DNA of 10,925 nt. Source: Desulfobacteraceae bacterium (GTDB lineage: Bacteria; Desulfobacterota; Desulfobacteria; Desulfobacterales; UBA11574). Positions 4,989-10,925 of this stretch are shown one piece after another (the first letter of the stretch is position 1; every line of letters begins with the position of its first letter). The notes beneath the pieces are model-generated. The model made no database searches. It was not told the DNA's origin and worked only from the letters and a program-made list of their open reading frames with translations. The stretch spans positions 1 to 10,925 of the forward strand of contig PKTV01000573.1 in assembly GCA_002868985.1 (NCBI GenBank), written 5' to 3'. Both the position numbers and the translations under genes were made by a program.

Positions 4989-5066
4989 TGAATCACTAAA
5001 AATTGATATGCTTTTGTTCCTATCATTAATTTTATAAGACAGCAAGGCCGCTTAAGGGATCATCAC

Positions 5067-5501
5067 ATGAAATCAGGCAAAATAATTAGCGAAGACAGCG
5101 AAATAAAAGATATACTTGAAAACGCCAAGACCATCGCAATCCTCGGCCTAAGCCCTAAACCTGACAGGGATTCCAATAGGGTCGCCAGATATCTGAAAGA
5201 TCATGGATACAGAATAATTCCGGTCAGGCCGGGCCAGAAAGAAATCTTGGGGCAAAGCGCCTATACCACCCTCGATGATATTAAGGAACACGTGGATATT
5301 GTGGATGTATTTAGAAATCCTGAACAGATTGTACCGCATGCGCACGAGGCGATACGAATGCAACCCAAGGTTTTTTGGATGCAGCTTGGTATCGAAAATC
5401 AAAAAGCGGCATCGCTTTTAGTAAAAGCGGGCATCGATGTCGTCATGAACAAATGTATAAAGATTGAACATGACAGACTCTGTAAAAACAACACCTTATA
5501 G
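5067..5501 (+). CDS. CoA-binding domain protein (YccU-like)
   Basis: A 144-residue cytoplasmic protein made of a single Rossmann-like CoA-binding domain of the succinyl-CoA-synthetase-alpha type. The N-terminal beta-strand and glycine turn AILGLSPKPDRDSNRVARYL (24-43), GYRIIPVRPGQKEILG, the DIVDVFRNPE segment (78-87), KVFWMQLGI (101-109) and the ending VVMNKCIKIEH (125-135) are the hallmarks of this small family. It lacks the ligase catalytic His domain, so it probably binds CoA or a CoA derivative rather than forming an acyl-CoA; the cellular role is not known. AAGGG at 5054-5058 is eight bases before the ATG. Its last 32 bases overlap the next gene in another frame, suggesting coupled translation with the Cys-rich protein. 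Confidence 0.92.
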   Translation: MKSGKIISEDSEIKDILENAKTIAILGLSPKPDRDSNRVARYLKDHGYRIIPVRPGQKEILGQSAYTTLDDIKEHVDIVDVFRNPEQIVPHAHEAIRMQPKVFWMQLGIENQKAASLLVKAGIDVVMNKCIKIEHDRLCKNNTL

Positions 5502-5694
5502 ACAAAAACGTCATAGAGCCCGGCAAATCGGATGTCATTGTTGCGGGAATAATCCACCTTTTTGCTGGAGATGCCGTTGCGGCTTCGCTATTTGTCAGGA
5601 ATGCATGATGGAAAATTTCTGGGGTATGTCGTGCAACGGAATAACCTGGGAGTGCCCGGACTGCGGTGCAAATAACGGATTCGGAAATCAATAA
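5470..5694 (+). CDS. Cys-rich zinc-ribbon-like small protein (74 aa)
   Basis: Function unknown. From the ATG at 5470 the product has 74 residues with 11 cysteines: a CHCC cluster at 22-25, CWRCRC at 32-37, CQEC at 42-45, Cys55 and CPDC at 62-65. The CxxC pairs at 32/35, 42/45 and 62/65, with Cys22, Cys25 and Cys55 as further ligand candidates, are typical of treble-clef or RING-like zinc folds and could hold two zinc ions. The N-terminus is basic (RQKRHRAR, 11-18), as for a nucleic acid binder or a chaperone-like tail. An in-frame TTG at 5464 is an alternative start. It overlaps the CoA-binding gene by 32 bases, which argues for co-expression. The regular cysteine spacing makes a chance reading frame unlikely. 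It ends 19 bases from the converging transpeptidase gene. Confidence 0.8.
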   Translation: MTDSVKTTPYRQKRHRARQIGCHCCGNNPPFCWRCRCGFAICQECMMENFWGMSCNGITWECPDCGANNGFGNQ

Positions 5695-5713
5695 CTCCCC
5701 AAACACCTATCCA

Positions 5714-6616
5714 TCATTCCTCGCTCCACTCCCGCTTGAGTAATACCATAAGGTCTTTTCCCGGCCGATAAAGGTAAAGCCTGGAAAATCCCAGTGTATT
5801 CTTGCTGTCTTTTATCCTGACTTCACCCACGGCCACAACACGCTTTTGAAAACCGATGACAGCAATATGCCTAAACTCTCGATTCAAAGACCGGTAGCTT
5901 TCAGGAAGCATGGCCTGTTTGAGTAAAATCATAAGTTCAGATAGTTGCTTTTTAGCCGGCTCAAACCGGTAAGGAAGATGGTTTGCAATGATAACAGGCA
6001 TTTTCTTTAACGGAGCCCGTCGATCCAGATCAGCAAGGTCTTGAGTGCTTAAAACCACGCACCCATTGGTTGAAAAAGGCTTTATGGTCTGGTTGGAACC
6101 ATGGATAAATATTCCGTTGCCACAATTACCTTCAAGACGGTCAAAGATATCAGGATAACTTAACCCAAAGGCCCGGTCGCCGAACAGGGTGACTTTAGAA
6201 TCCCGATAAGATGTTACATTGAAGTAAATCCCTTCAGGCGTTTTTTCGTCATTTTCTTTTTGTTTTTTCCCGGGCTGTTCTCCGGTACTGCAATCATAGC
6301 TTTTTATTAACTGGTAGCGACCGTCATAACAATATAAGTGAAGCTTTTGGAGGGCCTTCTCCACCAGAATCAGGTGAATAGGCTTTCCGTTTCCGTTGTA
6401 AAAAAGAATCGGACCGTCCCATAACCCGTCGTCCGCATCACCTTGGACCGTGTCTCCAGTGGGAATGTTTTGGAAAGGTTCTTTAGAATAGGAATTATTT
6501 TTTGACCCGTCACAACAAAGGGTTAAAACAGCGACAACAACAAGCAAAACCGCTTTCATGAAGATGAAATCGGCGGCCTTTTGTGTGTTTTTACCGTCAT
6601 TGGTTATAATCTGCAT
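5714..6616 (-). CDS. L,D-transpeptidase (YkuD) family protein, exported
   Basis: Enzymes of this family cross-link peptidoglycan stem peptides or attach proteins to them in the periplasm. The catalytic segment is IHGSN at 171-175 followed by STNGCVVL at 182-189: His172 and nucleophile Cys186 are present, while the usual SHGC His is Asn and the following Arg is Val, a variant form I believe occurs in delta-proteobacterial members. The domain spans about residues 78-215. Residues about 225-300 form a separate small C-terminal region ending in LYLYRPGKDLMVLLKREW, perhaps NTF2-like. A hydrophobic stretch at 20-34 ends in LTLCC, so it is either a lipoprotein with an imperfect lipobox or membrane anchored. 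The ATG at residue 20 (6559) would give a more ordinary signal peptide; neither start has a good ribosome binding site. It is third in the operon after the HAD gene (19-base gap). Confidence 0.88.
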   Translation of the reverse strand: MQIITNDGKNTQKAADFIFMKAVLLVVVAVLTLCCDGSKNNSYSKEPFQNIPTGDTVQGDADDGLWDGPILFYNGNGKPIHLILVEKALQKLHLYCYDGRYQLIKSYDCSTGEQPGKKQKENDEKTPEGIYFNVTSYRDSKVTLFGDRAFGLSYPDIFDRLEGNCGNGIFIHGSNQTIKPFSTNGCVVLSTQDLADLDRRAPLKKMPVIIANHLPYRFEPAKKQLSELMILLKQAMLPESYRSLNREFRHIAVIGFQKRVVAVGEVRIKDSKNTLGFSRLYLYRPGKDLMVLLKREWSEE

Positions 6617-6635: not shown

Positions 6636-7262
6636 TTATGCTATTTTTATATCAAGTATCTGAGCAATTTCTTTTAAGCTCTTGATATGAAAATTGGCGG
6701 AAAGAGATCTGTTCTGATACGCCACAAACGGCACACCCGCCGCTTTAGCAGCAATCTCGTCAAGTTCTGAATCTCCCACATATAAGGCATTATCTGCCTC
6801 TATTTCAAAATGTTCCAGAATTTTTATCAGCGGGTCCGGATAAGGTTTGGGACGATCGACGTCACTGGAACTCACAACCAGATCAAAATATTCTTCCAGA
6901 CCATGTTCGCTGAGAACCCGATCCATTGTGTTCGATCGGTTTGTCGCAATGGCAGTCTTGTATCCGGGCCTGAGTTTTTCGAGCAAAGGCTTTAAATAGG
7001 GTTCTAAAATCATATATTTTAAAAACGGGATATAGCTCATATTTTTTCGATAATTCTGAGCCGCTCTGACGCTTTTTTCATCATTAAACAGGTGGGCAAT
7101 CGATTGGTCTGCAGTGTGACTGTGACAATACGCAAACTGATCGGGGGTCAAGGTCGGCCGACCGAAATGCTGCAATATTTCATTATAATACGCCATGTTT
7201 GCTTTCGTTGTATCAAACATGACACCGTCACAGTCAAAAGCGACAACTTTGATATGTTCCAT
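6636..7262 (-). CDS. HAD-superfamily phosphatase (Gph-like)
   Basis: A 208-residue cytoplasmic hydrolase of the haloacid dehalogenase superfamily with a helical cap, similar to phosphoglycolate phosphatases. Motif I is FDCDGV with nucleophile Asp10 and acid/base Asp12; motif II is ATNRS with Thr107; motif III Lys139 is in RPKPYPD; motif IV GDSELD has Asp164 and Asp168 for magnesium. All catalytic residues are present, so it should be an active phosphatase; the substrate cannot be read from sequence, and 2-phosphoglycolate or another small phosphate ester is a guess from family resemblance. It begins two bases after the stop of the DUF1573 gene (TAA AG ATG), so the two are almost certainly co-transcribed and probably coupled. 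The transpeptidase gene follows 19 bases later. Confidence 0.92.
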   Translation of the reverse strand: MEHIKVVAFDCDGVMFDTTKANMAYYNEILQHFGRPTLTPDQFAYCHSHTADQSIAHLFNDEKSVRAAQNYRKNMSYIPFLKYMILEPYLKPLLEKLRPGYKTAIATNRSNTMDRVLSEHGLEEYFDLVVSSSDVDRPKPYPDPLIKILEHFEIEADNALYVGDSELDEIAAKAAGVPFVAYQNRSLSANFHIKSLKEIAQILDIKIA

Positions 7263-7264
7263 CT

Positions 7265-7996
7265 TTATTGTTTTTCGTTTTTCGACCTATCGAGAATGTT
7301 TCCGATAACATGGATTTTAATCTCGGGCCGTATCTTGCTGTCTGTTTTTAATTTTATGGTGTCAGCATAGCGCCCCTTGGTTTTTTTCAGATTTTCAACC
7401 GTCAGGACATATTCCATTTTTTCTGAACTTTTGGTTTTTTCCAGCGTAAAAGCGATGTTTTTTGTATTGGTTGCCTTGGCTTTTTTAATTGTGAACGGAT
7501 ACTTATCTTTCGGTATGATTTTCACCGTTGCTTTTATTGGATCGCCTGCAAAACCACGAAAAACAACCCTCTTTGGAACAATGTCAACAAATTTTTCAAC
7601 ATTTCCCATAATGGTCAAATAGAGCATGGAATGTTTGAGGGAATTGGTTTTGACCGTTATTTTTTTGGTGAGTGTTCTTCCGCCGTATCCCGCTGTATCG
7701 ACTTTAATAACAATTTTTCCCTCACCGCCGGGAGGGATCTGTCTCGGATATGAGACAGCCGTACACCCTCAGCCGGTTTTGACTTTTTCAATCACAAGCG
7801 GCGCATCTCCTTGGTTTTGTAGGATAAAATCATGTGTGACTTCAGTACCATCTATAACGGTGGGGAATGTGTACCGGCTTTCGGATACAAAGACAGATGG
7901 TGATGGAGGTGTTTGTTTGGAAGCGCCGAATGCGCTGCTATTGAAAGACATAATACAAACAGCGGCAAAAAAAATAAAAAAAAGTTTAAGTTTCAT
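7265..7996 (-). CDS. DUF1573-domain exported protein, putative selenoprotein with in-frame TGA (Sec76)
   Basis: A single frame runs from ATG at 7996 to TAA at 7265 (243 residues), broken only by TGA at 7769-7771. I translated the 141 bases between 7628 and 7768 and found no other stop. The product starts with a signal peptide (MKLKLFFIFFAAVCIMSF, likely cut near residue 24), then a DUF1573 Ig-like domain (about 40-130): YTFPTVIDGTEVTHDFILQN, PLVIEKVKTG, Sec76, GCTAVSYPRQIPPGGEGK, TLTKKITVKTN. A second beta-rich region follows (about 131-243). In the family the boundary motif is normally Cys-Gly-Cys-Thr, so the TGA replaces the first Cys exactly. A stem-loop follows the TGA. AAGGA at 8007-8011 lies ten bases before the ATG; an upstream in-frame ATG at 8041 would lengthen the protein but lacks the signal-peptide start. 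The family role is unknown; the protein should act in the periplasm. A nonsense mutation or sequence error is the alternative. Confidence 0.8.
7732..7771 (-). promoter_or_regulatory. SECIS-like stem-loop directly after the in-frame TGA
   Basis: On the mRNA, GAGGG starting at the second base of the TGA pairs with CCCTC 30 bases later, and inside it CTGTCTC (7758 to 7752) pairs perfectly with GAGACAG (7745 to 7739) around a six-base loop, ATATCC. The loop lies 18-23 bases after the TGA, within the distance known for bacterial SECIS elements. The loop lacks a G in its first two positions, which the E. coli-type consensus expects, so SelB recognition is not assured. All bases are also coding. Confidence 0.55.
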
Positions 7997-8094
7997 GTTA
8001 AAAATATCCTTAAAAAAATTAACCGGTTCATATTGACTCAAACATCCGATTCTCGACCTTGGCCACCATCAAACCGCCAAGGTATGAACAGCAT

Positions 8095-8133: not shown

Positions 8134-10575
8134 TTACATCATAAAAATCGGATCGACATCAAGAACAACCTTGACATCGCGTCGGTTGATTATTGCTCTG
8201 TTCTCGAGCCATAAATTATTAAGAAATCGGTGGAGTGCTCTGACTTCCAAACCTTTTAAAAGGATCTGCCATCGGTATTTTTTTGCAATCTTGAAAAGCG
8301 GGGCTTCAATAGGCCCCAATATTTCAAGGGTCTTTGATAACGATCTGTTCTTTTGTTTTAATGTATGGCAAAGATCTCCCACAGTCTCGGCATGCTGCCG
8401 GGTCTTTTCTTTGTTTTTTCCAGATATTTTAATCTGAGCCACTCTAGAAAATGGCGGATAATTCAGGCTCTTTCGAAACCCGATCTCGACCTTGTAAAAC
8501 GGCTTCAAGTCCTGCTCACTTGCAGATAAAATGCTGAAATGATCCGGGTTATACGTCTGCAGAATAACACGTCCGGGCACAGCCCCTCGCCCGGCGCGAC
8601 CGGAAACCTGTGCCAGCAGCTGAAATGTGCGTTCTCCGGCTCGAAAATCAGGAAAATTCAAAGAGAGGTCTGCACAGATAATACCAACAAGGGTAATGTT
8701 TGGAAAATCATGACCTTTAGCCACCATCTGAGTCCCCACCAGAACATCAATGGTCCGGTTTCTTACACCTTTAAGTATCTTTATCATTGATCCTTTACGC
8801 CGGGTCGTGTCACGATCCATTCTGGCGACTGAGGCTTGAGGGAAAAGCATCTTTACCGTCGCCTCGACCTTTTCGGTCCCAAGCCCCAAAAGCATGATCT
8901 TAGAGGACCCGCAAGAAATGCAGTTAGATGCTGACGCTCGTGTAAACCCACAGTAATGGCATTTGTATGCATTGGCCTTTTGATGCAATGTTAAAGAAAT
9001 ATCACAATTTTTACATCGTATCGCTTCACCGCAGGCTGAGCAAACCGGATAGCTGGCAAAGCCACGCCGGTTCAAAAATAGGAGCGCCTGCTCGCCACGT
9101 CCAAATGTCGTTTCCATGGCTTCATAAAGCTCCGGAGTAATAAACCGTCGACTTCCCCGAACATCTCTGCTTTTACGAAGATCAACAACTGTTACCTTGG
9201 GGAGCGATCTTTTTTCAACTCGCTCTTTTAATGTAACCCCTTTAAATTTCTCTATTTTTACATTATAATAGGACTGTATTGACGGCGTGGCAGACCCCAG
9301 CAGTGCCACGGCGTTCTGTTGCTTTGCCCTTACCACGGCAAGATCTCTGGCATTGTATCTCAAACGGCTATCCTGCTTGTAAGATGTGTCATGTTCTTCA
9401 TCAACGATAATAACGCCGATATTCGTTAAGGGTGCAAAAACAGCGGATCTGGCACCAATGGCGATGGAAACCTCACCCCTGGCAATACGTACCCACTGAT
9501 CGTAACGTTCTCCAGCAGAAAGTCCGCTGTGAAGAATAGCGACACGATCACCAAAGCGCGCCCTGAATCGCCTTTCCGTCTGGGATATAAGGGCAATTTC
9601 AGGAACCAGAACCAGAACGCTATAGCCCGAGTCAATCGCCTTTGCTGCAATATGCATGTAAACTTCTGTCTTACCGCTTCCGGTAACGCCGGTTAGAAGG
9701 AAAGTACTAAATTTTCCACCAAGAGTCCTGATCACTTTTGAAACCACACGGCTTTGTTCTCCAGTGAGCCTTTGGGGTGTATCAGGTTTTATAAATTCAC
9801 CAAGGGGATCGCGATAAACCTGTTTATTAAAAATAGAGATATACCTGTCCGCTTCTAAATGCTTTATTAATTTTGGAGCAGATGGCACAAGTTTTTTTAG
9901 TTTGCTTGCGCTGACTTCGCCCTGGCTTTTGATTGCTTCAATGATCTTTTGTTTTGACGCAGATAGACTGTCCATAGGGATATTTGCATTGATTAACGAC
10001 ACATGCCTTTGTGTTTTTGGTTTTGTGATCCCGCCTCTTAACTCCCGCTCATGAACAATGAGCCCTTGATGTTTCATGTCATAGATTAAAGCATTAGGAA
10101 TTTTGTTGTTAAGTTTTTCGCGAAGTTTTTTTAATCCGCAAGACGCTTCCTTTAACAAGTTTAAGATTTCCCTCCCCAAAGGTGTAAGAGAATTCTCGGA
10201 AAGGGCTTCTTCTCCATTTTTCGTAATGGCAATGGCAGTAAAATCATAAATATTCAGTCCACCAGGCAATGCACATTTGATAACATCTCCGATGGGATGC
10301 AGGTAGTAATCAGCCGTCCATCGGAAAAAAGGTATCATACTTGAAGGGAAAAGCGGCTCTTCATCAAGAATATCAAGAATATTTTTTATCTTCCCCTGAT
10401 CCGTATCTTTGCATACACCCAGAATATATCCCGTTACTCTGCGCCGGCCAAATGGAACAAGAACTCTTTTCCCTGTCGAAACCAGCGCTACCAGGTTTTC
10501 CGGAACGCTGTAAACATATGTGCTGTATACCGGTAAGGCTATGGCGACCTCTATGCAAGATGATACCGTTGTCAT
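8134..10575 (-). CDS. priA: Primosomal protein N' (replication restart helicase PriA)
   Basis: PriA recognises stalled forks and D-loops and reloads the replisome through the restart primosome. From ATG at 10575 the protein has 813 residues, longer than the about 730 of E. coli, with the extra length in the region before the helicase core. Order: 3'-DNA-end binding domain (8-105, EVAIALPVYSTYVYSVPE), winged helix region, helicase lobe 1 with Walker A GVTGSGKTEVY (296-306), DEEH (392-395) and LGSATPS (426-432), a two-zinc module with Cys512, 515, 521, 524, 539, 542, 552 and 555, then lobe 2 with GTEKVE, GTQMVAKGHDFPNI (614-627) and QVSGRAGRG (656-664), and the C-terminal domain. A GTG at 10647 would add 24 residues; the later ATG is preferred because the family fold begins right after it, but the ribosome binding site is not decisive. 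No gene overlaps; the operon below has its own candidate promoter. Confidence 0.96.
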   Translation of the reverse strand: MTTVSSCIEVAIALPVYSTYVYSVPENLVALVSTGKRVLVPFGRRRVTGYILGVCKDTDQGKIKNILDILDEEPLFPSSMIPFFRWTADYYLHPIGDVIKCALPGGLNIYDFTAIAITKNGEEALSENSLTPLGREILNLLKEASCGLKKLREKLNNKIPNALIYDMKHQGLIVHERELRGGITKPKTQRHVSLINANIPMDSLSASKQKIIEAIKSQGEVSASKLKKLVPSAPKLIKHLEADRYISIFNKQVYRDPLGEFIKPDTPQRLTGEQSRVVSKVIRTLGGKFSTFLLTGVTGSGKTEVYMHIAAKAIDSGYSVLVLVPEIALISQTERRFRARFGDRVAILHSGLSAGERYDQWVRIARGEVSIAIGARSAVFAPLTNIGVIIVDEEHDTSYKQDSRLRYNARDLAVVRAKQQNAVALLGSATPSIQSYYNVKIEKFKGVTLKERVEKRSLPKVTVVDLRKSRDVRGSRRFITPELYEAMETTFGRGEQALLFLNRRGFASYPVCSACGEAIRCKNCDISLTLHQKANAYKCHYCGFTRASASNCISCGSSKIMLLGLGTEKVEATVKMLFPQASVARMDRDTTRRKGSMIKILKGVRNRTIDVLVGTQMVAKGHDFPNITLVGIICADLSLNFPDFRAGERTFQLLAQVSGRAGRGAVPGRVILQTYNPDHFSILSASEQDLKPFYKVEIGFRKSLNYPPFSRVAQIKISGKNKEKTRQHAETVGDLCHTLKQKNRSLSKTLEILGPIEAPLFKIAKKYRWQILLKGLEVRALHRFLNNLWLENRAIINRRDVKVVLDVDPIFMM

Positions 10576-10925
10576 TTTTTTCAGTCCGTCTGAATTCCTT
10601 TTATAAGCAGTAAAACCGATGTGAGATGAAGGCTTTTTTCTTGACACTTCATCCGCTTTTTTCTAATCTGTAATATGCAAACTGTCTGTGAAAATTAGAT
10701 TTTTCTTAAATATTTTCTTTTGAACCTAAGTTGAGCGATTTTCAAGTTTGCCGCAGATAAGCCCCGCGTAGCGGGATCTCCGCTTCGCTATGACAAGTCT
10801 TGAGCGTAGCGAAATCCCGTTCCACGGGAGAAGATGCTGTTTCGCTATAGTTGTCTATGCGGAATGGCATCTGACGCAGTAGATGCGGTGAAATTGGAAA
10901 TCCCGCAGGGTTTCAAATTATTGAA
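10576..10925. other. Non-coding region upstream of priA
   Basis: About 350 bases with no convincing gene on either strand. The part from 10576 to about 10750 is AT-rich and should hold the priA promoter, but no -35/-10 pair there is convincing (TATTAC about 100 bases upstream of the ATG lacks a partner). If the GTG at 10647 is the real priA start, the first 72 bases are coding. The rest is the hairpin cluster listed separately. Confidence 0.6.
10751..10914. repeat. Cluster of short GC-rich hairpins, REP-like dispersed repeat candidate
   Basis: Four small inverted repeats follow one another: CCCGC-GTA-GCGGG (10763-10775), CCCGT-TCC-ACGGG (10816-10828), GCATCT with an eight-base loop and AGATGC (10867-10886), and GAAATCCC-GCA-GGGTTTC (10897-10914, one bulged T). 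The words GCGTAGCG and TTCGCTA recur at 10766, 10804, 10784 and 10841, and GACAA...TAGCGAAA (10792-10814) is an imperfect inverse of TTTCGCTATAGTTGTC (10840-10855). On the minus strand part of it reads CTTGTCATAGCGAAGCGGAG, which recalls the widespread TGTCATTGCGAG-type intergenic repeats. It is richer in G+C than the flanking DNA and may run past the right edge. Confidence 0.6.

Follow-up and report, generated by a model that had tools for sequence, protein, structure and literature searches.

Does the TGA codon that interrupts a DUF1573 reading frame in a Desulfobacteraceae bacterium encode selenocysteine (Sec), and what might such a protein do? The frame lies in a 10,925-nucleotide (nt) stretch of contig PKTV01000573.1 (assembly GCA_002868985.1), hereafter the window, on the minus strand, as do the features of this gene and its HAD_2 and priA neighbours described below. 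It runs from an ATG at 7996–7994 to a TAA at 7267–7265 and encodes 243 residues if the TGA at 7769–7771 is counted as Sec. Sequence comparison indicates that the gene very probably encodes a genuine selenoprotein, belonging to OS_HP2, a family that is known but uncharacterised: the UGA is conserved, the family assignment is clear, and the hairpins behind the UGA are under selection.

Reading frame, family and distribution

Between the ATG and the TAA, the frame (7265..7996) contains the single internal TGA and is otherwise free of stops. A Shine-Dalgarno-like candidate, AAGGA (8007..8011), was found by reading the sequence 10 nt 5' of the ATG. The TGA specifies residue 76, the first of a U-G-C motif in the context VKTG-U-GCTAV...IPPGGEGK, and Cys78 (TGT, 7763..7765) is its partner. 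A preliminary description of this DNA had proposed that one TGA at 7769–7771 splits an open frame across which family similarity continues, and the match to PF07610 (DUF1573; residues 38–133, 78.3 bits, cut-off 26.1) indeed spans it. The same description expected automatic calling to produce two fragments; plain open reading frame (ORF) calling returned exactly that, a TTG-initiated ORF ending at 7769 and an ATG-initiated ORF starting at 7627. Its signal peptide corresponds to a hydrophobic, signal-peptide-like N-terminus (approximately residues 1–25; 7922..7996), which includes a helix at residues 3–18 in the structure model. The DUF1573 domain (residues 38–133; 7598..7885) has a PapD/HYDIN-like immunoglobulin (Ig) fold according to Pfam and the model, and is followed by a second all-beta Ig-like domain without Cys (approximately residues 137–235; 7292..7588), delineated from the sequence and the model. 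The model has a mean predicted local distance difference test score (pLDDT) of 93.2 and places the TGA site inside the first domain, between strands 67–74 and 78–82. A search of the PDB by sequence with the window protein gave no matches.

The window protein scores 150.3 bits against NCBIfam NF041425.1 (OS_HP2_seleno, cut-off 100), named 'OS_HP2 family (seleno)protein', and carries in its DUF1573 domain the UGC (UxC) motif listed for OS_HP2. A Cys-type homologue, L094, also exceeds this cut-off (140.4 bits). Table 2 of PMC2398784, a source available to us in part, as were the two that follow, lists OS_HP2 under pfam07610 with a UxC motif, two selenoproteins and 354 Cys homologues in the samples. 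PMC9312934 and PMC13188914 list a DUF1573 selenoprotein with UGC; in the portions seen, the former credits it to work of 2007 on a symbiont of Olavius algarvensis and the latter to its reference 60, which it uses for that symbiont. These listings of OS_HP2/DUF1573 as a selenoprotein family date from 2008, 2022 and 2026. The suggestion that the protein was undescribed and might be new thus falls, as NF041425.1 and the three papers already list it.

Homologues were sought in 96 genomes of the order (the window's own, its genus, family and order); 87 had one and 86 had a copy whose residue at the site could be typed. The 104 typed homologues comprise 89 with TGA at the site of residue 76, 13 with CGC and two with neither. 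This is the alignment of TGA with the Cys of homologues that had been proposed as a check, and it agrees with the earlier view that Sec replaces the first Cys of a CGC motif in DUF1573. The U is followed by GC in 88 of the 89 Sec copies. At least one Sec copy is present in 83 of the 86 genomes with a typed copy (83 of the 96 searched), from 62 of the 71 sampled families; three of the 86 have Cys copies only, and nine have both forms. Within the genus, G001, G003 and G004 carry the same TGA, and G002 had no match. L046 and L047, probably the same records as G001 C120 and G003 C375, were excluded as further support. Short fragments in G023 and G029, a second copy in G089, and L162 were left untyped, and L158 and L159 have CCG and CFC where others have CGC. 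In a sample of 395 genomes of the phylum, the order included, 153 had a homologue. Outside the order, UGC was found at 58 of 60 loci, all chosen for a reported TGA inside the match and taken from a list that has at least three further ones (G097, G128, G278); the other two, L199 and L246, show CGC where they match best.

On the phylogenetic tree, the Sec/Cys pattern needs seven changes, at least four of them forced by starred branches. Because the tree is poorly resolved (unsettled bootstrap, 47 of 99 inner branches open, the long branches L160 and L161 meeting), we claim no direction for these changes. The main clade of Cys forms (L105, L116, L134, L137 and L142) groups together on the tree (100/97). 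Separately, L092, L094, L116, L134 and L142 share a neighbour cluster that by eye looks heterodisulfide-reductase/ferredoxin-like.

The substitution pattern indicates purifying selection on both halves of the gene. Among the 28 pairs formed by the eight nearest genes, which are not independent, the ratio of nonsynonymous to synonymous rates (dN/dS) 5' of the TGA was 0.11–0.80 and below 0.5 in 27 pairs (50 codons, the first 25 codons excluded). On the 3' side it was 0.04–0.39 in the 27 pairs with computable dS, which was saturated in some.

Hairpins behind the UGA

Two hairpins follow the UGA in the window gene. Counting the U of UGA as nt 1, hairpin 1 occupies nt 14–33 (7739..7758), with 7 base pairs, the loop AUAUCC and its apical loop 17 nt after the UGA; hairpin 2 occupies nt 35–54 (7718..7737), and its GGC loop, which a C-G pair closes, lies 39 nt downstream of the UGA. 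Their stability was compared with that of 60 synonymous-codon shuffles per gene (80 for genes outside the order), which keep the protein unchanged. The mean z values of hairpins 1 and 2 were −2.38 and −2.24 in the 89 Sec genes, and −0.74 and +0.19 in the 13 Cys genes. Control windows upstream and downstream of the hairpins gave +0.14 to −0.42 in Sec genes; in Cys genes they gave −0.33 to −0.63, little above the value of hairpin 1. Thus, as judged from the codon shuffles, both hairpins of Sec genes exceed the stability that the protein demands, and those of Cys genes do so much less. The 58 Sec genes sampled beyond the order gave −2.57 and −1.43, and hairpin 1 is better kept there than hairpin 2.

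Pairing was followed in alignment A1, which omits four Sec windows with length changes or an altered motif (L088, L102, L144, L160) and has 84 distinct rows. At least one double-sided change occurs in all seven pairs of hairpin 1 and in four of the eight pairs of hairpin 2. Pair 17–30 of hairpin 1 is U-A in 46 rows, C-G in 24, U-G in 13 and other in one; pair 18–29 is C-G in 61, U-A in 13, U-G in three and other in seven. Within hairpin 1, pairing is conserved best on the inside; the two outer pairs are broken in 36 and 32 rows. Some changes combine an amino-acid replacement in one arm with a silent substitution in the other, for example Val GUC to Ala GCC together with Arg AGA to AGG (L016 and L083).

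The bacterial model of the selenocysteine insertion sequence (SECIS), as given in the part of PMC13188914 available to us, has a loop of 3–9 nt with a G among the first two loop letters, a distance of 16–37 nt and a stability of −7.5 kcal/mol or lower; the same source states that some bacterial SECIS elements fall outside it. A hairpin within 16–37 nt, with the G rule left aside, was found in 80 of 89 Sec, four of 13 Cys and 48 of 58 outside-order Sec genes, and a hairpin with a G in the loop at 38–42 nt in 77 of 89, two of 13 and 37 of 58, respectively. Hairpin 1 might act as a spacer that brings hairpin 2 within reach by reducing the distance to be covered; equally well, hairpin 1 might by itself be a SECIS of a kind that the model does not describe. 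The G residues of loop 2 are no independent evidence of SelB binding, because they are encoded by a conserved Pro-Gly-Gly. A scan of the window against Rfam gave no matches.

Selenocysteine machinery and the reading of the UGA

The window belongs to a draft metagenome-assembled genome (MAG) of 3.05 Mb in 577 contigs, 89.7% complete. First searches found no selA in it. Its contig C446 nevertheless starts with the last 24 codons of selA (RTILDDELQLIEHAFRHMLKKAGS, followed by the stop); in the sister genome G001, selA ends at L252:6628, and C446 begins at position 6554 of that query. Since C446 starts inside the end of selA, we attribute the missing gene to an assembly gap. The sisters G001–G004 all have selA, that of G002 being partial. 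The MAG also has selD (370.9 bits; L257, contig C415:2678–3598) with one in-frame TGA, in KTCGUAAK, and hence a second TGA-bearing gene of selenoprotein type. Across the order, 90 of the 96 genomes have selA, among them every one of the 62 with a completeness of 90% or more and a contamination of 5% or less. SelB exceeded the cut-off in 22 of 31 genomes. For tRNA-Sec, where the displayed rows have 39 scored candidates per genome, 74 of 96 exceeded the cut-off; by hand count, 70 of the 96 reach at least 72 bits, and the remaining four matches, at 50–57 bits, are possibly other tRNAs.

The best selB match of the MAG was rejected as selB: its sequence and neighbours read as another factor, which we take to be EF-Tu. 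The MAG's tRNA-Sec matches proved to be tRNAs of other specificities (Trp, Leu, Arg, Tyr and Ser). A repeat of about 170–200 nt, at 9697–9915 of L252, is common to many contigs of the window's genome, which contains other repeats too.

Several of our results weigh against Sec insertion aided by these hairpins. The preliminary description had named a lack of sel genes as the outcome that would overturn its proposal. The MAG at first seemed to lack them; the selA end at a contig edge and the Sec-type selD removed part of this objection, and part of it stands, as selB was not found in the MAG, nor was tRNA-Sec among the 150 of 227 tRNA candidates scored. The selC region of the sister is likewise absent from the MAG assembly apart from repeats, an explanation that does not extend to selB; in G001, too, no selB exceeded the cut-off. 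No hairpin of the window gene conforms to the published SECIS model, and a script searching local hairpins found conforming ones in 13 of 89 Sec and two of 13 Cys genes (eight and three, respectively, with a cruder first script). RNAalifold recovered three of the pairs in hairpin 2 and missed hairpin 1 entirely. When partners were slid by −1, double changes were nearly as numerous, in 58 cells with 10 pairs and 30 types, as unslid (66, 11 and 29); paired cells were far fewer, 55.0% versus 83.6%, in a count that takes the window gene's own fold as the structure and so favours zero slide. Finally, Cys (CGC) occupies the site in 13 of the 104 copies.

Two explanations would dispense with Sec altogether. 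A sequencing or assembly error hiding a TGT or TGC would be in keeping with a draft MAG of 577 contigs and with those 13 Cys codons among 104 relatives. The same TGA, however, is found in G001, G003 and G004 of the genus and in 83 genomes in all; because it recurs in this way, an error is in practice refuted, and we give it next to no credence. The other explanation is a decaying pseudogene, or a true stop that separates a 75-residue peptide from a separately started C-terminal protein, the very fragments that plain ORF calling yields. This is scarcely more credible, given the low dN/dS on both sides of the TGA, a frame without any other stop, the selected hairpins and the modelled position of the TGA between two strands of the first domain. 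Taken on its own, insertion of Sec at UGA 7769–7771 is a conclusion that we hold with high confidence on comparative grounds. That the gene encodes, in addition, an exported two-domain Sec-Gly-Cys protein of the known OS_HP2/DUF1573 family is a broader statement, which we regard as likely.

Neighbours, proposed role and known systems

Only 2 nt separate the stop codon of the Sec gene from the start of a HAD_2 phosphatase gene (6636..7262), and the two likely form one operon. Neighbours were counted at 88 Sec loci besides that of the window, clustered by BLAST, with some contigs ending near the gene. At 68 of the 88, the Sec gene is followed on its own strand by a relative of the window's HAD_2 phosphatase, which is the second gene in one case; two loci end before any downstream ORF. 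Upstream in the window is priA (PriA_3primeBD and PriA_C by Pfam; 8134..10647), a relative of which is among the four nearest upstream ORFs at 43 of the 88 loci. Beyond the phosphatase gene, an L,D-transpeptidase (YkuD) gene at 5714–6616 (minus strand) is possibly the next of the operon. Further along, an ORF at 5464–5694 on the plus strand encodes 76 Cys-rich residues without a Pfam match and overlaps the end of a CoA_binding_2 gene at 5067–5501.

Other loci offer more specific associations. Seven of the 88 (L086, L087, L111, L120, L133, L141 and L146) have both MauE (PF07291) and rhodanese (PF00581) by Pfam. MauE is a redox-related membrane protein required for the maturation of methylamine dehydrogenase. 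In L141 (4998–6293, minus strand), MauE (residues 67–196, 92.6 bits) and a DUF1573 domain with UGC share one frame; the MauE copies that were read, this one included, carry a CGC motif of their own. In L146 (494–1972, minus strand), Cation_efflux, ZT_dimer and MauE form one 492-residue frame beside the Sec-DUF1573 gene and rhodanese, and in L087 a DsbD-type membrane protein adjoins the Sec gene. The MauE subfamily thus points to redox and metals at once. In L081, L119, L096 and L154, the Sec domain is fused in frame behind an OmpA domain (PF00691), and in L114 OmpA falls just below the Pfam cut-off (26.2 versus 27.2); these fusions suggest a location at the cell wall.

We hypothesize that the ribosome reads UGA 7769–7771 as Sec with the aid of the structured RNA directly behind it, and that the two-domain protein is exported and works in the periplasm. 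Sec76-Gly-Cys78, predicted to lie at a turn that links two strands of the first domain, would form a reversible selenenylsulfide between Sec76 and Cys78 and exchange electrons with a substrate in the periplasm, such as a thiol or a persulfide. A MauE-like membrane protein, fused or adjacent to the Sec domain, would be the partner in one subfamily, together with rhodanese. A periplasmic redox pair is the role that we put forward, tentatively and with somewhat less than even confidence, metal binding being a serious rival. Our confidence is reduced by the Cation_efflux (PF01545) genes that adjoin three of the seven MauE clusters (L120, L141 and L146). An ArsR-type regulator beside the Sec gene of L087, which suits metal handling, also counts against a redox role, as do the HAD phosphatase as usual neighbour, which does not point to redox work, the lack of MauE beside the window's Sec gene, and L144 (G072; 4998–5720, minus strand), which has TGA at the site followed by AS (UAS), with no Cys beside Sec, and scores 91.7 on NF041425, under the cut-off of 100.

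With Sec inserted, U-G-C might instead be a ligand for a metal or metalloid such as copper, mercury or cadmium. Thiophilic metals might bind to a soft selenolate-thiolate pair placed on a turn, and the Cation_efflux genes, in L146 fused in frame with MauE, and the ArsR-type regulator would fit. MauE with rhodanese at all seven loci and the DsbD-type protein at L087 suit redox work, and the main priA-DUF1573-HAD context, as seen in the window, has no metal or redox genes by Pfam; we consider a metal ligand rather unlikely, though it deserves serious attention. A chaperone or scaffold in which U-G-C forms a structural selenenylsulfide is less probable still, since a structural bond alone would leave the wide retention of costly Sec unexplained. 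A more elaborate form of the redox proposal is doubtful as a whole: the protein would be a periplasmic selenol relay, close to core in Desulfobacterales, that receives its electrons from MauE-like proteins where these are present, and its UGA would be decoded through a tandem SECIS. Hairpin 1 would take some 20 nt out of the path by folding, and the G-bearing hairpin 2, at a nominal 39 nt, would thereby be presented to SelB within 16–37 nt.

With the Sec form in 83 of the 96 sampled genomes, the family is widely kept in this order. The MauE, rhodanese, cation-efflux and OmpA links supply concrete candidate partners for a family that the portions of the listings seen carry without a function, and the double hairpin provides a test case for the limit on SECIS distance from the UGA and for a hairpin acting as a spacer. 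A practical consequence is that plain ORF calling cuts the Sec-DUF1573 gene in two. In the literature covered, which leaves out most subscription journals and includes some sources in part, we found no function, order-wide spread, double hairpin or fusion to OmpA or MauE reported for this family. Beyond the prior listings, the present analysis adds the order-wide spread, a SECIS region mostly off the published model, and the HAD, OmpA and MauE-rhodanese partners.

The fold is shared with PapD-like/HYDIN-type domains (PDB 2e6j and 6bqm) and with PDB 2qsv, an uncharacterised protein from Porphyromonas gingivalis; such a likeness does not imply a common function. Like the published SECIS model, the Sec-DUF1573 gene has stem-loops directly behind the UGA, and the top of hairpin 2, C-GGC-G, resembles N1-G[G/U]-N-N2. 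It differs in that hairpin 1, in range at 17 nt, has a loop, AUAUCC, without G among its first two letters, and hairpin 2, at 39 nt, lies beyond 16–37. The Cys-type DUF1573 copies of the order share the domain and the site, with CGC, whereas the 13 of them that were tested have only weak hairpins or none. With the OS_HP2 family, the window protein has the domain, the position of Sec and the motif in common, and there is no difference at the level of the family.
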